A stretch of DNA of 64,000 bases from Blastopirellula sediminis (GTDB lineage Bacteria > Planctomycetota > Planctomycetia > Pirellulales > Pirellulaceae), in contig NZ_JAJKFT010000010.1 of assembly GCF_020966755.1 (NCBI RefSeq), positions 2,196,720 to 2,260,719 on the forward strand. The letters are read 5' to 3'. This document shows, one piece after another, positions 1,076-59,717 of this stretch; within the stretch, counting starts at the first letter, position 1; the number at the start of each line of letters is the position of its first letter. Made by a program: the position numbers and the translations under genes. The notes beneath the pieces were generated by a model. The model was given only the letters and a program-made list of their open reading frames with translations. It ran no database searches and was not told the DNA's origin.

Positions 1076-1245
1076 GGACCAAGAATTCTGCTTGCAAAAC
1101 GTACTGGCGTTTTGTATACTAAACCCCTCAAGGTGCGGGCGTCTGATCAACCGCGCAGCGTCCATTTTTCTACCCGCCTCAAACTCGGACTGAGGCGTTT
1201 CTCACAGCACGAAAGCACTACGACAGCAGCTCCGTGCGCGTCGCG

Positions 1246-1352: not shown

Positions 1353-3092
1353 ATGCGAAAGGCCCGAATCCGGCGCCTCGCCGCCCTGCTGCGCGCGAAG
1401 CAAAAGAAGAAACGCAAACAAGCTGACAACACCGCGGCGCATGAAGAGCTGATCGAAGCGCAGTGGCTCGCCTGCATGATGATGTACCCCGAGCGGTTGA
1501 GCGAAGATGCCCTCCCGCTGCAAGTGTTTCGCGTGCCGTGTCATCGCGACATCTACTCGGCCCTCCTCGGGCTGCACCTCACTGGCGACGAAGATCGCGA
1601 CGACCAGCAACTGCTCGCCGACCTCCTCACCTACGGCTACGACAAACTGACCGCGTCGGCGCTGATTCAAGCGGTGATCCACTCCGGCAGCGACCTGGAC
1701 AAATTTGCCGACTACGCAGCGGCCTTAAGAAAACGACTGACGCCGGAGCCGGAGCAAGTTGAATTGCCGCCCGATGGAGAAATCGTGCGACTCGAACTCG
1801 GCAGCGGCAGTTCGTTTCGAACGCTGACGACGGAAGAGCTCTTCGCCGAACAACAGCCGCGCGAGTGGCTGCTATCGAACTTCCTCACCCGCAACGAACC
1901 GGCAGTCATTGTCGGCCCCAGCAAAACGCTGAAGAGTTCCCTCGCCGTCGACTTGTGCGCAGCGCTCGCGAGCGGAGGAAAGTTTTTGAATCATTTCGCG
2001 GCCGAAAAACCGCTGCGCGTCGGCTTCGCGTGTAGCAGCCAGCAACAGCAAACATTGACCGATCTGACGCAGCGGTGGGGTGAAGCTCGTCAGGCGAAGC
2101 CCAATTCGAACAACTTCATGTGGCTCCTGACCACCGACGATCCGGCCGATCCCGAGAGCCTCGGCAAACTTCGCGACTGGATCACGAAGCATGAGCTGGA
2201 AGTCGTGGTGATCGATGCGATTCGCTTGAGTTCGACCGGCAAACGCAAACAGGCCGAAGCGCTGCAGGCTCTCGCACAGTGTTGTCTCGATTACGGCGCG
2301 ACGCCGATTCTCTGCATCCAAACGCGGAAGGAAATGAAGCCTGGCAAGTTGGAAGCATCGATCCTCGCCGGCAGTCTCGACTTCGCCCAGCAATGGCTGT
2401 TGGTGAATCGCCGCCAAACTTATTCGCCAGGCAGCGGAGAACATCGACTCTGGCTAACGCTCGGCGGTTACGCCGGGCAAGGTGGCGAGTGGGGCGTCGA
2501 TGTCGAAGAAGGAAGACTAACCGACGTAGGGCAGGCCGTGCCTGCCGAATTGTTGGCGCTCGCAAGCAGAGCGGCAGGCACGGCCTGCCCTACGACTACG
2601 ACCGGGCGACGCTGGCAAACGAACGTGCATGAGGCCGAAACGCTGCAAGACGAAGCCGAACGCTGGAAAGACGCCGCGCTCGACCAACGAATGCGGTCCC
2701 GAATTCGCCTGGCGATCACCGACCTCGGCGAGGCGCATGCGACGAAGCTCCGCGTCCGCGAAAACTGCGGCATGAACGGCACGAAGTTCGCTCGCGGTTG
2801 GGATCGGATGGTGGCGGCGGGGGAGATTGAAAAGATCGTTGACGAGAAACGGTTTTACGATCCGAGGTATCGATTGATCATGCCGGCCCCAGAAAAAAAT
2901 GACGCGGCCGAGTCCACTCCGTTCGTAGGGTCCGCTGTGCGGACCATGGGAAGCGATAGCAGATTGGCCACGTCGATTGACGCCTCTGCGGTCCGCACAG
3001 CGGACCCTGCCGTAGATGCGCTACGCGACGAAAAAAAATTGGGAGCTGCGGTCCAGTCGGTTGATTCTCGTTGCGCGTCCATCGCGAGTTGA
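1353..3092 (+). CDS. Orphan AAA/RepA-like ATPase with DnaB-N-like domain
   Basis: A 579-residue ATPase. A Lys/Arg-rich start leads into a helical region (about 28-130) like the DnaB helicase N-terminal domain. A RecA/AAA_25-like core follows, with Walker A GPSKTLKSS at 188-196 and Walker B VVVIDAI at 284-290. Related proteins (RepA type) act as hexameric DNA ATPases in plasmid or element replication. No primase, integrase or replication partner lies nearby. The start is supported by AGAGGAA just upstream. The coding region contains two inverted repeats, at 2526-2593 (residues 392-414) and 2927-3008 (525-552). It also holds a reversed copy of the DWTA-type motif at 3031-3058. The last roughly 55 residues therefore look repeat-derived rather than ancestral. 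Helicase activity is not shown. Confidence 0.75.
   Translation: MRKARIRRLAALLRAKQKKKRKQADNTAAHEELIEAQWLACMMMYPERLSEDALPLQVFRVPCHRDIYSALLGLHLTGDEDRDDQQLLADLLTYGYDKLTASALIQAVIHSGSDLDKFADYAAALRKRLTPEPEQVELPPDGEIVRLELGSGSSFRTLTTEELFAEQQPREWLLSNFLTRNEPAVIVGPSKTLKSSLAVDLCAALASGGKFLNHFAAEKPLRVGFACSSQQQQTLTDLTQRWGEARQAKPNSNNFMWLLTTDDPADPESLGKLRDWITKHELEVVVIDAIRLSSTGKRKQAEALQALAQCCLDYGATPILCIQTRKEMKPGKLEASILAGSLDFAQQWLLVNRRQTYSPGSGEHRLWLTLGGYAGQGGEWGVDVEEGRLTDVGQAVPAELLALASRAAGTACPTTTTGRRWQTNVHEAETLQDEAERWKDAALDQRMRSRIRLAITDLGEAHATKLRVRENCGMNGTKFARGWDRMVAAGEIEKIVDEKRFYDPRYRLIMPAPEKNDAAESTPFVGSAVRTMGSDSRLATSIDASAVRTADPAVDALRDEKKLGAAVQSVDSRCASIAS
2526..2593. repeat. Perfect 22-bp inverted repeat inside a coding region
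   Basis: The arm 2526-2547 (GTAGGGCAGGCCGTGCCTGC plus CG) is exactly complementary to 2572-2593, with a 24-base spacer. The element keeps the ATPase frame open and encodes VGQAVPAEL...AAGTACPT. GTAGGGCAGG-type palindromes are frequent between planctomycete genes from general experience. Here one sits inside a gene, after the ATPase core. Confidence 0.85.
2927..3008. repeat. Perfect 19-bp inverted repeat at the 3' end of the ATPase gene
   Basis: AGGGTCCGCTGTGCGGACC (2927-2945) is exactly complementary to 2990-3008. Each arm is itself partly palindromic (GGTCCGC/GCGGACC). The reading frame continues through both arms as VGSAVRT...SAVRTADP. Confidence 0.85.
3031..3058 (-). repeat. Isolated reverse copy of the GACTGGACCGCA...T8 motif
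   Basis: Read on the minus strand this is GACTGGACCGCAG, then CTCCCAA, then eight T. That is the same design as the six-copy cluster at 57856-58209, about 55 kb away. It lies inside the 3' end of the orphan ATPase gene and covers codons 560-569. Confidence 0.8.
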
Positions 3093-3136
3093 CGCGCGCG
3101 GGCGATCTTTGGCAATTCGATCTTGGCGTATCGCTT

Positions 3137-57030: not shown

Positions 57031-57783
57031 ATGTCTTCCCTCGGCGATTTCTCGCATCAAGCCTCCGCCTACGGCCCCTCCCGCCCCGGATATCCGGCTG
57101 AATTTATTTCGCTGCTAGCGGAAAACGCAGGCGTCGACGCCGGCGATCCGGTCGTCGATCTTGGCGCCGGAACCGGAATCTCGACCCGTTTGCTGGTCGA
57201 AGCCGGCTTTCGCGTCACGGCCGTCGAACCGAACGAGGCGATGCGCGAACATGCCGACGTGCCTGGCGCCGTTTGGGTCGACGGCTCGTTCGAGGCGACC
57301 GGTTTACCCGATCAGTCGCAAGCTTGGGCATTCGCCGCGCAGGCGTTCCATTGGGCCTATCCGCCTAAGGCGCTGCCCGAAATTCGTCGCATTCTTCGTC
57401 CGCAAGGGAAGTTCACCGTTCTCTGGAACAACCGCGTCGCGGCGAGCGGCACGACGGTCGGCTGGACCGAGCAAGCGATCCGCCGCCATGTTCCTGACTT
57501 CAACGAGGCGTACCGCAATCGCGACTGGGATCAACTGCTCGAATCGACCGGCGACTTTCGCTTCGTCGCGCGGAACGAAACGAAGCATGCCGTCCTGATG
57601 TCGCCGGATCGCTACCTCCAACTTTGGCGCAGCCACAATCGCCTGGCCAATGTCGCCGGACCAGAACGCTTGGAGGCGTTCCTAACGGACCTGTCGGACT
57701 ACCTGCAGCGCGAGGAAATCCCCCAGATCGAAGTGGTCTACAAATGCGAAGCCTGGACCGCCGAGCGAGTCGATAAAAACTAA
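57031..57783 (+). CDS. Class I SAM-dependent methyltransferase
   Basis: A 250-residue protein starting MSSLGDFSHQASAYGPSRPG; in-frame codons back to 56893 are probably untranslated. DPVVDLGAGTGISTRL is motif I, VEPNEAMREHADVPGA holds the SAM-binding acidic residue, and AFAAQAFHWAYPPKALPEIR is motif II/III. The family is the Methyltransf_11 type that methylates small molecules. The substrate is unknown. Its stop codon is immediately followed by a dispersed repeat at 57784. Confidence 0.88.
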   Translation: MSSLGDFSHQASAYGPSRPGYPAEFISLLAENAGVDAGDPVVDLGAGTGISTRLLVEAGFRVTAVEPNEAMREHADVPGAVWVDGSFEATGLPDQSQAWAFAAQAFHWAYPPKALPEIRRILRPQGKFTVLWNNRVAASGTTVGWTEQAIRRHVPDFNEAYRNRDWDQLLESTGDFRFVARNETKHAVLMSPDRYLQLWRSHNRLANVAGPERLEAFLTDLSDYLQREEIPQIEVVYKCEAWTAERVDKN

Positions 57784-57814
57784 CCCGAGGTGCGAGCCGA
57801 GGGAATGCGGCCGC
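57784..57814 (+). repeat. GAGGGAATGCGG repeat at the methyltransferase stop
   Basis: CCCGAGGTGCGAGCCGAGGG continuing AATGCGGCCGC begins at the base after the stop codon. It is the same family as 58509-58537, 58629-58657 and, reversed, 3137-3250. Confidence 0.8.
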
Positions 57815-57855
57815 AAGTCAATGACGAATGTCGAAGCCCGCATGACGAATCAGCC

Positions 57856-58209
57856 GACTGGACCGGACATCACATTTTTTTTCTAAGCGTGCCACGGCTC
57901 TGTGAGCCGTGTCTTCCTTCGACCTACCGAGCGACTTGGTCAGCCACTGGACTGGACCGCACTCGAATTTTTTTACGTCAACTTACCCATCCGCCCCGCA
58001 GGGCAATCTGGGGGATTTGCTGATGCGAATAGGGGAGGCCGACTGGACCGCACGCCCTCTTTTTTTCGTTCTCCGAGAGTGGACTGGACTGCTCCGTTTT
58101 TTTTCTCTGGCGACATGCGGCGCCGTCCCATCAGTCAGTGCCGATCATATGGACCGCACCTCCTGTTTTTTTGAACTCGGAGTGGACTGGACCGCACGCA
58201 ATTTTTTTT
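57856..58209 (+). repeat. Six-copy cluster of GACTGGACCGCAC...T7-8 motif
   Basis: Copies are 57856-57882, 57950-57974, 58041-58066, 58082-58104, 58150-58172 and 58185-58209, all in the same orientation. Each has GACTGGACCGCAC or a close variant, 4-8 variable bases, and a run of 7-8 T. Start-to-start spacings are 94, 91, 41, 68 and 35, too uneven for a CRISPR. Copies lie in different reading frames, so they are not a protein repeat. A seventh copy is at 3031-3058. Confidence 0.9.
57893..57911. repeat. CACGGCTC palindrome between motif copies
   Basis: CACGGCTC-tgt-GAGCCGTG is a perfect 8-bp stem. It lies between copies one and two of the T-tract motif. Confidence 0.75.
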
Positions 58210-58508
58210 GTCGGCGGGCCATGCGACCTCTTTTCCTTCACCAGCGCGCACCTTGAGCGCCGGCGCATCGCCATCGCGTTTGCGCAAAATGAACCGCACG
58301 ACTGATTGGACGTCGAACTACGCTGCCAGGGGAAGAATTCCCGCCGTGGTTAAACCCGGTCCCAAACCGAGGTGAGAAGCACAACCGGACGTCACGCGGT
58401 GATCAGGCGCTGGCGTCCAGCAGCTTGAATTTTCCCAGAAGTCGAGCAATCGTGCAAGCGACAAAGGTGGCGTCAGTCGTTGGCGTGATGCGGCGTCGGA
58501 TCGCGATC

Positions 58509-58657
58509 GTAGCCCGAGGCGCGAGCCGAGGGAATGCGGCCGCAAGAATAGAAGAATGCCGCGCGGCGGAGGAAGCGTTCCTTCGGCCGAGCGGCATTTT
58601 AAGTTTGGTGTTGGTTGGACCGGGCGCGGCATTCCCTCGGCTCGCGCCTCGGGCTAC
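58509..58657. repeat. 29-bp perfect inverted pair of dispersed repeat
   Basis: 58509-58537 (GTAGCCCGAGGCGCGAGCCG then AGGGAATGC) is exactly complementary to 58629-58657. The 91 bases between them have no clear coding signal. It ends 20 bases before the matrixin stop. Confidence 0.85.
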
Positions 58658-58676
58658 TATTTGGCGCCGTTACCGA

Positions 58677-59717
58677 TTAGCGACGTCGATTAAGTACGAA
58701 GACGAAGAGTTCGCTGATCGGGCTCGTCTCAGTGACGCTGTTCTGCGGGGTATTTCCGGCAAACCGTTGGAACGGACCGCGGCCTGAACGGGGTGAGAAG
58801 CCTGAGAACGGGCTGCGTCCCCAGCGACGGCCAAACGGCGGGAAGGTCGGTTCCTCTTCGGTCGGCGGCTGGTCGGTATCGTCTTCGTCGTCATCCGGAT
58901 CGGTCGGATCTTCGGTCGGATCATCTTCCGACGGCGGAGTTTCTTCCGGATCGTCTTCCGGGTCTTCGTCGGTCGGCGGGTCGTCCTCGCCGTCATCCGG
59001 GTTGTCGGTCGGATCTTCCGTGGGGTCTTCGGTCGGATCGGTCGGCGGCGTTTCGGTGGGGGGCTCGTCGGTCGGAGTCTCCTCCGTCGGGGTTTCTTCG
59101 GTCGGCGTGTCGTCCGGAGCGGCGGTCGTCAGTTCGGCCGGAGCGTAGAGAGCAAGGGCGGCGTCGACATCTTCGGACGAAAGCTCGGTGAACGATTTCG
59201 AGGGGGAGACGCTGGGGTACATCACCGAGCCGGGCGTATCGGAATGTTCCAGGCCGAGCGAGTGTCCCAGTTCATGGACTAGTACGTAGGTCAGGTCAAA
59301 CGCGGCCGAGCCAAGGTTGTTGCCAATCTCCCAGGTCTCGGCGATGTCGACCAGCACGTCGCCGGCGATGATGGCCGGGTTCACGTCATCGGGAAAGTAG
59401 GCTTGGGCGAGCGTGCCGCCGGATCCGTCGATCGAACCGAATTCGATGTCTATCGAATCGCGTAAGTTGGCGATCGTCGTTTCGACAAAGGTAACGTCGA
59501 TCACGTCGCTCCACGCTTTTAAAGCGGCGGAGACGGCCGATTCGACCTCGGCTTGGGTGAGACTAAAGCTTTCCGGGACCTGACCGACGTAATAGGTCAG
59601 CGTCGCGGAGCCTTGGCCGGCGCCGTCCCAGCCGACGCTCGACAAACAGAGTCGCAACTCTAGCGTCTCGGCGGCGGGATTGTGGGCAGTAATCTCGAGT
59701 CGGCGATTCTTTCGCAT
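58677..59717 (-). CDS. Matrixin (M10) metalloprotease with acidic tail
   Basis: A 346-residue protein from ATG 59717 (MRKNRRLEITAHNPAAETLE). The opening AETLELRLCLSS resembles the planctomycete LEPR-XLL N-terminal motif. A protease domain follows (about 25-200) with HELGHSLGLEHSD zinc site and Met-turn SVMYP. A long tail of Asp/Pro/Thr/Glu repeats (EETPTEETPTDEPPTE and more, about 210-310) ends in an Arg/Phe/Gly-rich segment. The protease is likely secreted or surface-bound. The tail is repeat-rich at DNA level and may vary in length. It lies next to the repeat island. Confidence 0.85.
   Translation of the reverse strand: MRKNRRLEITAHNPAAETLELRLCLSSVGWDGAGQGSATLTYYVGQVPESFSLTQAEVESAVSAALKAWSDVIDVTFVETTIANLRDSIDIEFGSIDGSGGTLAQAYFPDDVNPAIIAGDVLVDIAETWEIGNNLGSAAFDLTYVLVHELGHSLGLEHSDTPGSVMYPSVSPSKSFTELSSEDVDAALALYAPAELTTAAPDDTPTEETPTEETPTDEPPTETPPTDPTEDPTEDPTDNPDDGEDDPPTDEDPEDDPEETPPSEDDPTEDPTDPDDDEDDTDQPPTEEEPTFPPFGRRWGRSPFSGFSPRSGRGPFQRFAGNTPQNSVTETSPISELFVFVLNRRR

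Follow-up and report, generated by a model that had tools for sequence, protein, structure and literature searches.

The window, i.e., the whole stretch of 64,000 nucleotides that was analysed, contains a cluster of six copies of a short motif at 57856–58209 and an ATPase gene at 1353–3092 whose 3′ part carries the same motif. The copies of the cluster have one orientation and start at 57856, 57950, 58041, 58082, 58147, and 58185 (in-register spacings of 94, 91, 41, 65, and 38). These coordinates agree with the original prediction, which described the copies as a GACTGGACCGCAC-like core followed by a T-run and placed a seventh, reversed copy at 3031–3058. The prediction had also excluded a CRISPR and a protein repeat; both exclusions hold, the former in view of the irregular spacings (38–94) and the degenerate copies. 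The features of the two sites are the following:

1092..1120, plus strand: promoter-like sequence (class II) ahead of the ATPase gene, TTGCAA-N17-TATACT, aligned (row L244)
1353..3092, plus strand: gene for a DnaB-like AAA_25 ATPase of 579 aa, which has 12 copies above 200 bits in its own genome
2893..2916, plus strand: motif copy towards the 3′ end of the ATPase CDS, A7 TGACGCGGCCGAGTCCA
3031..3058, plus strand: motif copy towards the 3′ end of the ATPase CDS (the seventh copy of the original prediction), A8 TTGGGAGCTGCGGTCCAGTC
3106..3117, plus strand: boxA-like TCTTTGGCAATT just past the ATPase open frame, by sequence pattern
58429..58457, minus strand: promoter-like sequence (class II) preceding the window array, −35 TTGCAC 58457–58452, 17-nt spacer, −10-like GAAAAT 58434–58429
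58396..58409, minus strand: conserved CGCCTGATCACCGC box of the class II leader, from the class II alignment and Markov control
58355..58372, minus strand: leader stem CCTCGG...CCGGG, pairing by eye; CCTCGG...CGAGG or similar in other class II loci
58185..58209, minus strand: array motif copy 1 (promoter-proximal), A8 TTGCGTGCGGTCCAGTC
58147..58172, minus strand: array motif copy 2, A7 CAGGAGGTGCGGTCCATAT
58082..58104, minus strand: array motif copy 3, A8 CGGAGCAGTCCAGTC
58041..58066, minus strand: array motif copy 4, A7 GAGGGCGTGCGGTCCAGTC
57950..57974, minus strand: array motif copy 5, A7 TTCGAGTGCGGTCCAGTC
57856..57882, minus strand: array motif copy 6 (distal), A8 TGTGATGTCCGGTCCAGTC

The core together with the T-run was found 7 times in the window, compared with a mean of 0.1 (maximum 1) in 40 Markov-1 sequences. 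The bare 13-mer, at up to 3 mismatches, occurred 29 times against a chance mean of 23.25, i.e., not above chance; the T-run therefore belongs to the signal. Four of the five other copies of the array have 63–74% identity with the reference copy. Many arrays of the same genome are bounded by a conserved sequence, TTGTCTGTTGACAAAGCGCACGGATTCGTGGTCGATT, directed into the array and designated here as the class I leader; because of this direction, the strand to be read is the reverse complement of the one described originally. On this strand, each copy consists of A7–9, 3–10 bases, and GCGGTCCAGTCCA, with GTCC-N-GTCC as the core. The T-tract is an A-tract on the strand to which the promoters point. 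Of the Hfq-type or terminator element suggested for the original orientation, the terminator reading was not supported: one of the six copies was terminator-like, none folded clearly better than shuffles (best z −0.83), and leaders and boxA point in the opposite direction.

The motif was searched for in 40 genomes including the own genome (G000) and three other Blastopirellula (G001, G002, which is B. marina, and G003). The pattern TGGACNGC-N2–10-T7 gave 100 forward and 108 reverse raw matches in G000, with 0 for the reversed-pattern control; raw match numbers are inflated, since overlapping T-runs were counted more than once. G001, G002, and G003 yielded 71, 56, and 20 matches with the same pattern (controls 2, 5, and 0), and each of the other 36 genomes yielded at most 7. 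A slightly looser pattern revealed 205 copies in 52 fetched loci of G000, 48 of which contained at least two copies, and mixed orientation of copies was found in none of the 52. About 50 arrays like the window cluster are spread over chromosomal sites of this genome. Copies elsewhere are far above the reversed-pattern control, and neither of the outcomes that had been named as speaking against the original prediction, a chance-level copy number or a single local tandem duplication without copies elsewhere, was found.

The site of the window array is not conserved: no array follows the gene for the orthologous methyltransferase in G001–G003. Elsewhere, arrays of different species occupy syntenic loci (e.g., L078–L166, L142–L124, L143–L132, L154–L123, and L145–L141). 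Such arrays differ greatly; what is found again in different species is the leader, boxA, and the A-tract/GTCC core, and the intervening sequence changes. Comparison of the window array alone with phage and plasmid records gave no match at the sensitivity used, and on this basis a CRISPR-like acquisition was rejected. GTAG-type palindromic repeats, TAGCCCGAGGCGCGAGCCGAGGGAATGCGGC, flank the window array (58506–58540/58626–58660 and 57781–57817), and several palindrome families are recurrent within arrays; GTAG repeats are reported in the PVC group (PMC3733652). Tandem expansion was observed in G002, with 39–40 nt units present approximately 17 times in L147 and approximately 8 times in L151, and a 13-nt ACGGTCCAGTCCA unit repeated about 20 times in L154. 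Array units of G002 also contain a gene resembling, by eye, an IS4-like transposase (L051 2442–3818 and L052 2788–4086); the two copies are near-identical and have array motifs on their flanks.

Rfam searches of the window and 5 loci returned three tRNAs and nothing else, and those of 9 loci at E up to 1 returned two matches (E 0.46 and 1) far under the gathering scores; intron families were absent from these searches. Pairing of the core with 16S rRNA gave no match under two mismatches in three 16S genes in either sense. A unit hairpin of B. marina and G003 had 72% of cells paired, with covariation not above shuffles, in a set of 19 look-alike sequences (14 of 24 ATPase-end sequences, 10 being dropped, and 5 chosen by eye from arrays). 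A CsrA sponge was rejected because the GGA repeats sit on the other strand, the direction of leader and boxA making GUCC the RNA sense. No description of these arrays was found among the literature matches listed for Blastopirellula, noncoding RNA, and genome.

At up to 3 mismatches, the class I leader occurred 35, 26, 16, and 25 times in G000, G001, G002, and G003, respectively. Of 241 genomes of the family, four contained it, each a Blastopirellula (1 of 68 genera). Polarity was analysed for 96 leaders of the fetched loci at up to 5 mismatches (34, 24, 16, and 22 in G000–G003). The 1200 nt downstream of them contained the motif 320 times in sense and never in antisense orientation, with at least one copy behind 84 of the 96 leaders; upstream, the motif was found in neither sense. 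The sequence GTCCNGTCC occurred 490 times in sense and twice in antisense within 900 nt downstream, and once in each orientation upstream. The own-genome loci had partly been chosen for holding the motif; the 62 leaders of G001–G003, chosen by leader, alone gave 172 sense to 0 antisense copies. Among 53 loci of G000 (52 and the window), 35 had a class I leader at up to 7 mismatches, 4 lay at an ATPase gene, 13 had neither, and 1 was without the motif.

For the window array, the class I leader scored at best −28 in the region, the lowest training score being +35; on this score it was dropped, and a class II sequence was found instead. The class II type was recognised from the 13 own-genome loci without class I leader or ATPase. 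It consists of TTGCAA-N17-TATACT, followed by a CGTCTGATCA-CGC box and then a CCTCGG stem, and its alignment spans seven ATPase loci, the arrays L039, L048, L068, and L086, and the window array. The full, stricter pattern, which was tuned on these same loci, had one match in the window (minus strand, 58457–58396) and none in 40 Markov sequences; it misses the sequence at 1092–1120. Eight of the 13 loci were left unassigned by pattern, one of which (L077) is similar by eye. A generic sigma-70 consensus scan detected no promoter in 57700–58700. The window array is thus preceded, at 58457, by a promoter-like sequence of a type that it has in common with the ATPase gene.

Class I loci often have an rRNA-type boxA, an element that acts in RNA, in the form TCTTTGRCAATT 45–130 nt past the leader. 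With a pattern to which the G form had been added after inspection of the arrays, boxA matching at least 10 of 12 positions was found after 28 of the 96 class I leaders; for the same 96, the controls gave none on the reverse strand, 2 in an upstream stretch, and about 0.9 in shuffles. No clear boxA was present at the other 68 class I loci or, within the range searched, at the window array. The A form, TCTTTGACAATT, also occurs in the three 16S leaders fetched (G001–G003). Exact TCTTTGRMAATTNG was found 58 times in the four genomes (control 0). Twenty of these sites were inspected: several turned out to be additional arrays or ends of ATPase genes, some fall within apparent genes, four share a sequence taken by eye for a 23S leader, and three precede what by eye is a probable tRNA gene. 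Outside Blastopirellula, 32 boxA matches were found in 10 genomes of 10 genera. At L207, L123, and L154, an exact boxA is located after the array instead of before it. The own genome yielded no 16S rRNA gene, and its contigs have four exact boxA sites less than 1 kb from their ends; rRNA operons are therefore probably missing at assembly gaps. BoxA has been reported to protect rRNA and CRISPR arrays from early termination (PMC7862264).

The ATPase gene had been called an orphan; it is in fact multicopy, with 12, 16, 13, and 11 copies above 200 bits in G000–G003. The window protein matched AAA_25 at E 2.8e-17, the DnaB N-domain being below the curated cut-off. AAA_25 was found in all 26 family members and the DnaB N-terminal domain in 10 of them (E up to 0.01); residues G188, P189, S190, K191, K194, and S196 of Walker A are invariant. 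The structure model of the window ATPase is weak (mean pLDDT of 56), and its best structure matches are mostly DnaB helicases with TM-scores near 0.25. Nine other genomes yielded one distant match, in G006 (31% identity, E 1.3e-28); as far as 13 genomes show, the family appears to be close to genus-specific, like the class I leader. Neither a transposase or nuclease family nor a reverse transcriptase or homing endonuclease family was matched in the ATPase searches; a marginal AP_endonuc_2 fold match was noted in 2 of the 26 members (E 0.0085). PADLOC defence models gave no matches for the two ATPases scanned.

We examined 30 ATPase loci, 29 in the genus (of 52 genus copies) and one in another genus. 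A sense A-tract/GTCC motif was present near the end of the open frame in all 29 genus loci, the first copy lying from 431 nt before to 75 nt after that end. The original prediction was right in giving weight to the ATPase-gene copy. At the one locus examined in another genus, the motif was absent. Antisense GTCCNGTCC was found neither downstream nor upstream of the 29 genus loci; a looser motif gave one antisense match within 2.6 kb downstream in six of seven G000 loci. The ATPase copies read the motif in different frames (e.g., GAA AAA AAG GAT CCG GTC CTG TCC vs. GAA AAA AAT GAA ACG GAG CGG TCC AGT; automatic site-picking missed the motif in L251 and L259), and it is therefore conserved at the nucleotide level. 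Lysine codons elsewhere in the ATPase genes are AAA in 292 and AAG in 326 cases.

The starts of the ATPase genes have the same two types of leader as the arrays. The class I leader, at up to 7 mismatches, was found at 11 of the 14 examined genes of G002 and G003 and at none of the 15 examined copies of G000 and G001, and the class II sequence was found at seven of eight G000 loci. BoxA with at most one mismatch follows the ATPase gene in 8 of 8 G000, 5 of 7 G001, 0 of 7 G002, and 1 of 7 G003 loci; upstream of the gene, it was absent from the examined loci. Among the leader loci, L137 was the only one with an ATPase match. At L137 (2903, 3140) and L260, both of G003, three tandem leaders approximately 240 nt apart lie upstream of one ATPase gene, and at both loci a csrA-like gene (MLVLTRKQQEKIQIGDDIVIT..., by eye) follows the ATPase, with GTCC motifs between.

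Three syntenic sites contain the ATPase in one species and leader and array alone in another, with both flanks matching in the same orientation: G000 L261/G001 L167, G000 L273/G001 L173, and G003 L268/G001 L171. The last site is also matched by G000 L042, on its 3′ side only. In G003, near-identical ATPase units (99.4% over 1.92 kb) were found at different sites; they begin shortly upstream of the leader and reach slightly beyond the stop codon, their right ends varying among pairs; such units are therefore evidence of recent spread or gene conversion. In one compared pair, the left end of the unit is near the leader. An unsystematic comparison of unit ends revealed no target-site duplication, and the 3′ ends are fuzzy. 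In a tree of 30 ATPase copies, the eight of G000 and the seven of G001 each form one clade, and those of G002 and G003 fall into several groups; the copies were the best matches to the window protein, a choice that favours such clades.

The original observation is thus confirmed and its interpretation partly supported, an RNA or mobilisation-type signal being likely, as had been suggested. The arrays and the signal at the 3′ ends of the ATPase genes point to an apparently unreported kind of genetic element. With slightly better than even confidence, we regard them as a Blastopirellula family of elements that have a promoter-like sequence at one end and a motif array at the other, some of them enclosing a DnaB-like ATPase gene. 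Sequence comparison establishes the architecture, its strict polarity, the two ends common to both forms, and sites with and without the gene. It also shows that, in the genomes searched, four of which are Blastopirellula, the class I leader is confined to the genus. In this reading, each element has a promoter-like end, either of class I (TTGACA-type) or of class II with the TGATCA box, sometimes a rRNA-type boxA, and a tail of A-tract and GGTCC-N-GTCC motifs. The coding form carries the DnaB-like ATPase gene between the ends, and the noncoding form without the gene is the majority in the own genome. We infer that the noncoding copies are transcribed as long RNAs, some of which boxA may protect. 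The tail motif may be a cis tag recognised by the ATPase, as RNA or as transcribed or opened DNA, both in the mRNA or gene of the ATPase itself and in the noncoding arrays. ATPase units could spread among loci by recombination between the common ends, and the family could be either selfish or have a host role, e.g., with arrays as decoys of the ATPase. A more specific version is tentative, and we doubt it more than we trust it: the DnaB-like ATPase would maintain and spread its own gene by recognising the transcribed A-tract/GUCC tail, and a larger population of ORF-less noncoding RNA derivatives, keeping both ends, would depend on it in the way that SINE-type elements depend on LINEs, boxA having been taken over from the rRNA machinery.

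The same features may be read at the level of DNA. The sequence TGGACTGGACCGC with T8, as read on the other strand, would then be a duplex binding site next to an easily melted tract, loading the DnaB-like ATPase, and the arrays would be iteron-type sites, a remnant or analogue of a replication origin or recombination hot spot. Direct repeats beside AT tracts are in line with this, as are the DnaB-like character of the ATPase, for which structural support is weak, and the position of the motif at the end of the ATPase gene, since iterons lie near rep genes. We nevertheless consider it unlikely: the arrays have one polarity relative to the leader, boxA, acting in RNA, follows 28 of 96 leaders, the spacing is irregular, and the copies of one genome occupy about 50 chromosomal sites.

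Alternatively, the arrays might give rise to noncoding RNAs acting as decoys or sponges for some other RNA or RNA-binding protein. BoxA after many leaders and the many copies of one short motif per locus would suit such RNAs. The motif kept at the nucleotide level in the ATPase 3′ ends would in this case reflect autoregulation of the ATPase mRNA by the same binder. However, no candidate binder was found, and promoter types, loci, and presence in the 13 genomes tested track the ATPase itself, which makes such RNAs quite improbable. It is very unlikely that the arrays are passive interspersed repeats, i.e., a functionless intergenic repeat expanding by slippage and recombination near palindromic repeats. 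The great differences between syntenic arrays, their mixing with GTAG-type palindromes, and the tandem expansion in L147, L151, and L154 would be expected of such repeats, but the recurrence of leader, boxA, and A-tract/GTCC core across species while the sequence between them changes, the strict polarity, and the fixed position near the ATPase 3′ end would not.

If the RNAs of the proposed two-ended element family are made, one genus would have dozens of long noncoding RNA genes per genome, matching no Rfam family in the loci searched. A helicase-like gene family with the same terminal signal would make motif and ATPase a ready pair for binding studies. The three natural pairs of sites with and without the gene bear on how ORF-bearing and ORF-less forms interconvert without a recognisable transposase.

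Several known systems resemble this family in part. REPIN/RAYT systems combine hairpin REPs with RAYT, a tyrosine (HUH) transposase. A multicopy short repeat, a gene with the same repeat at its border, and copies with and without the gene are common to both; here, however, the gene encodes a DnaB-like ATPase, the array is polar and lies behind a leader, neither a Y1 transposase nor a palindromic repeat unit was found, and the GTAG-type palindromes beside the arrays are separate. Type III toxin–antitoxin systems (ToxIN) also combine a tandem-repeat RNA with a protein gene, but the Blastopirellula repeats are at the 3′ end of the gene rather than ahead of it, and the gene encodes an AAA_25 ATPase. 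Iteron plasmid origins with RepA or a DnaB-like helicase have direct repeats, AT tracts, and a helicase-like protein; in contrast, the arrays described here are chromosomal and dispersed, with fixed polarity behind a leader and with boxA. ORF-bearing and ORF-less group I/II introns and homing elements likewise occur as forms with and without a gene at the same site; unlike them, the searched loci matched no Rfam intron family, and the ATPase matched neither homing endonuclease nor reverse transcriptase families. CRISPR arrays with boxA-bearing leaders (Stringer et al. 2020, as cited in PMC7862264) have, as described there, a leader with boxA followed by a noncoding repeat array of fixed polarity. 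The Blastopirellula repeats differ in being short, degenerate, irregularly spaced, and distributed over about 50 loci, and the linked gene is not cas-like. With boxA-antiterminated stable RNAs, 28 of the 96 class I loci have in common a boxA like that of the rRNA leader after the promoter.
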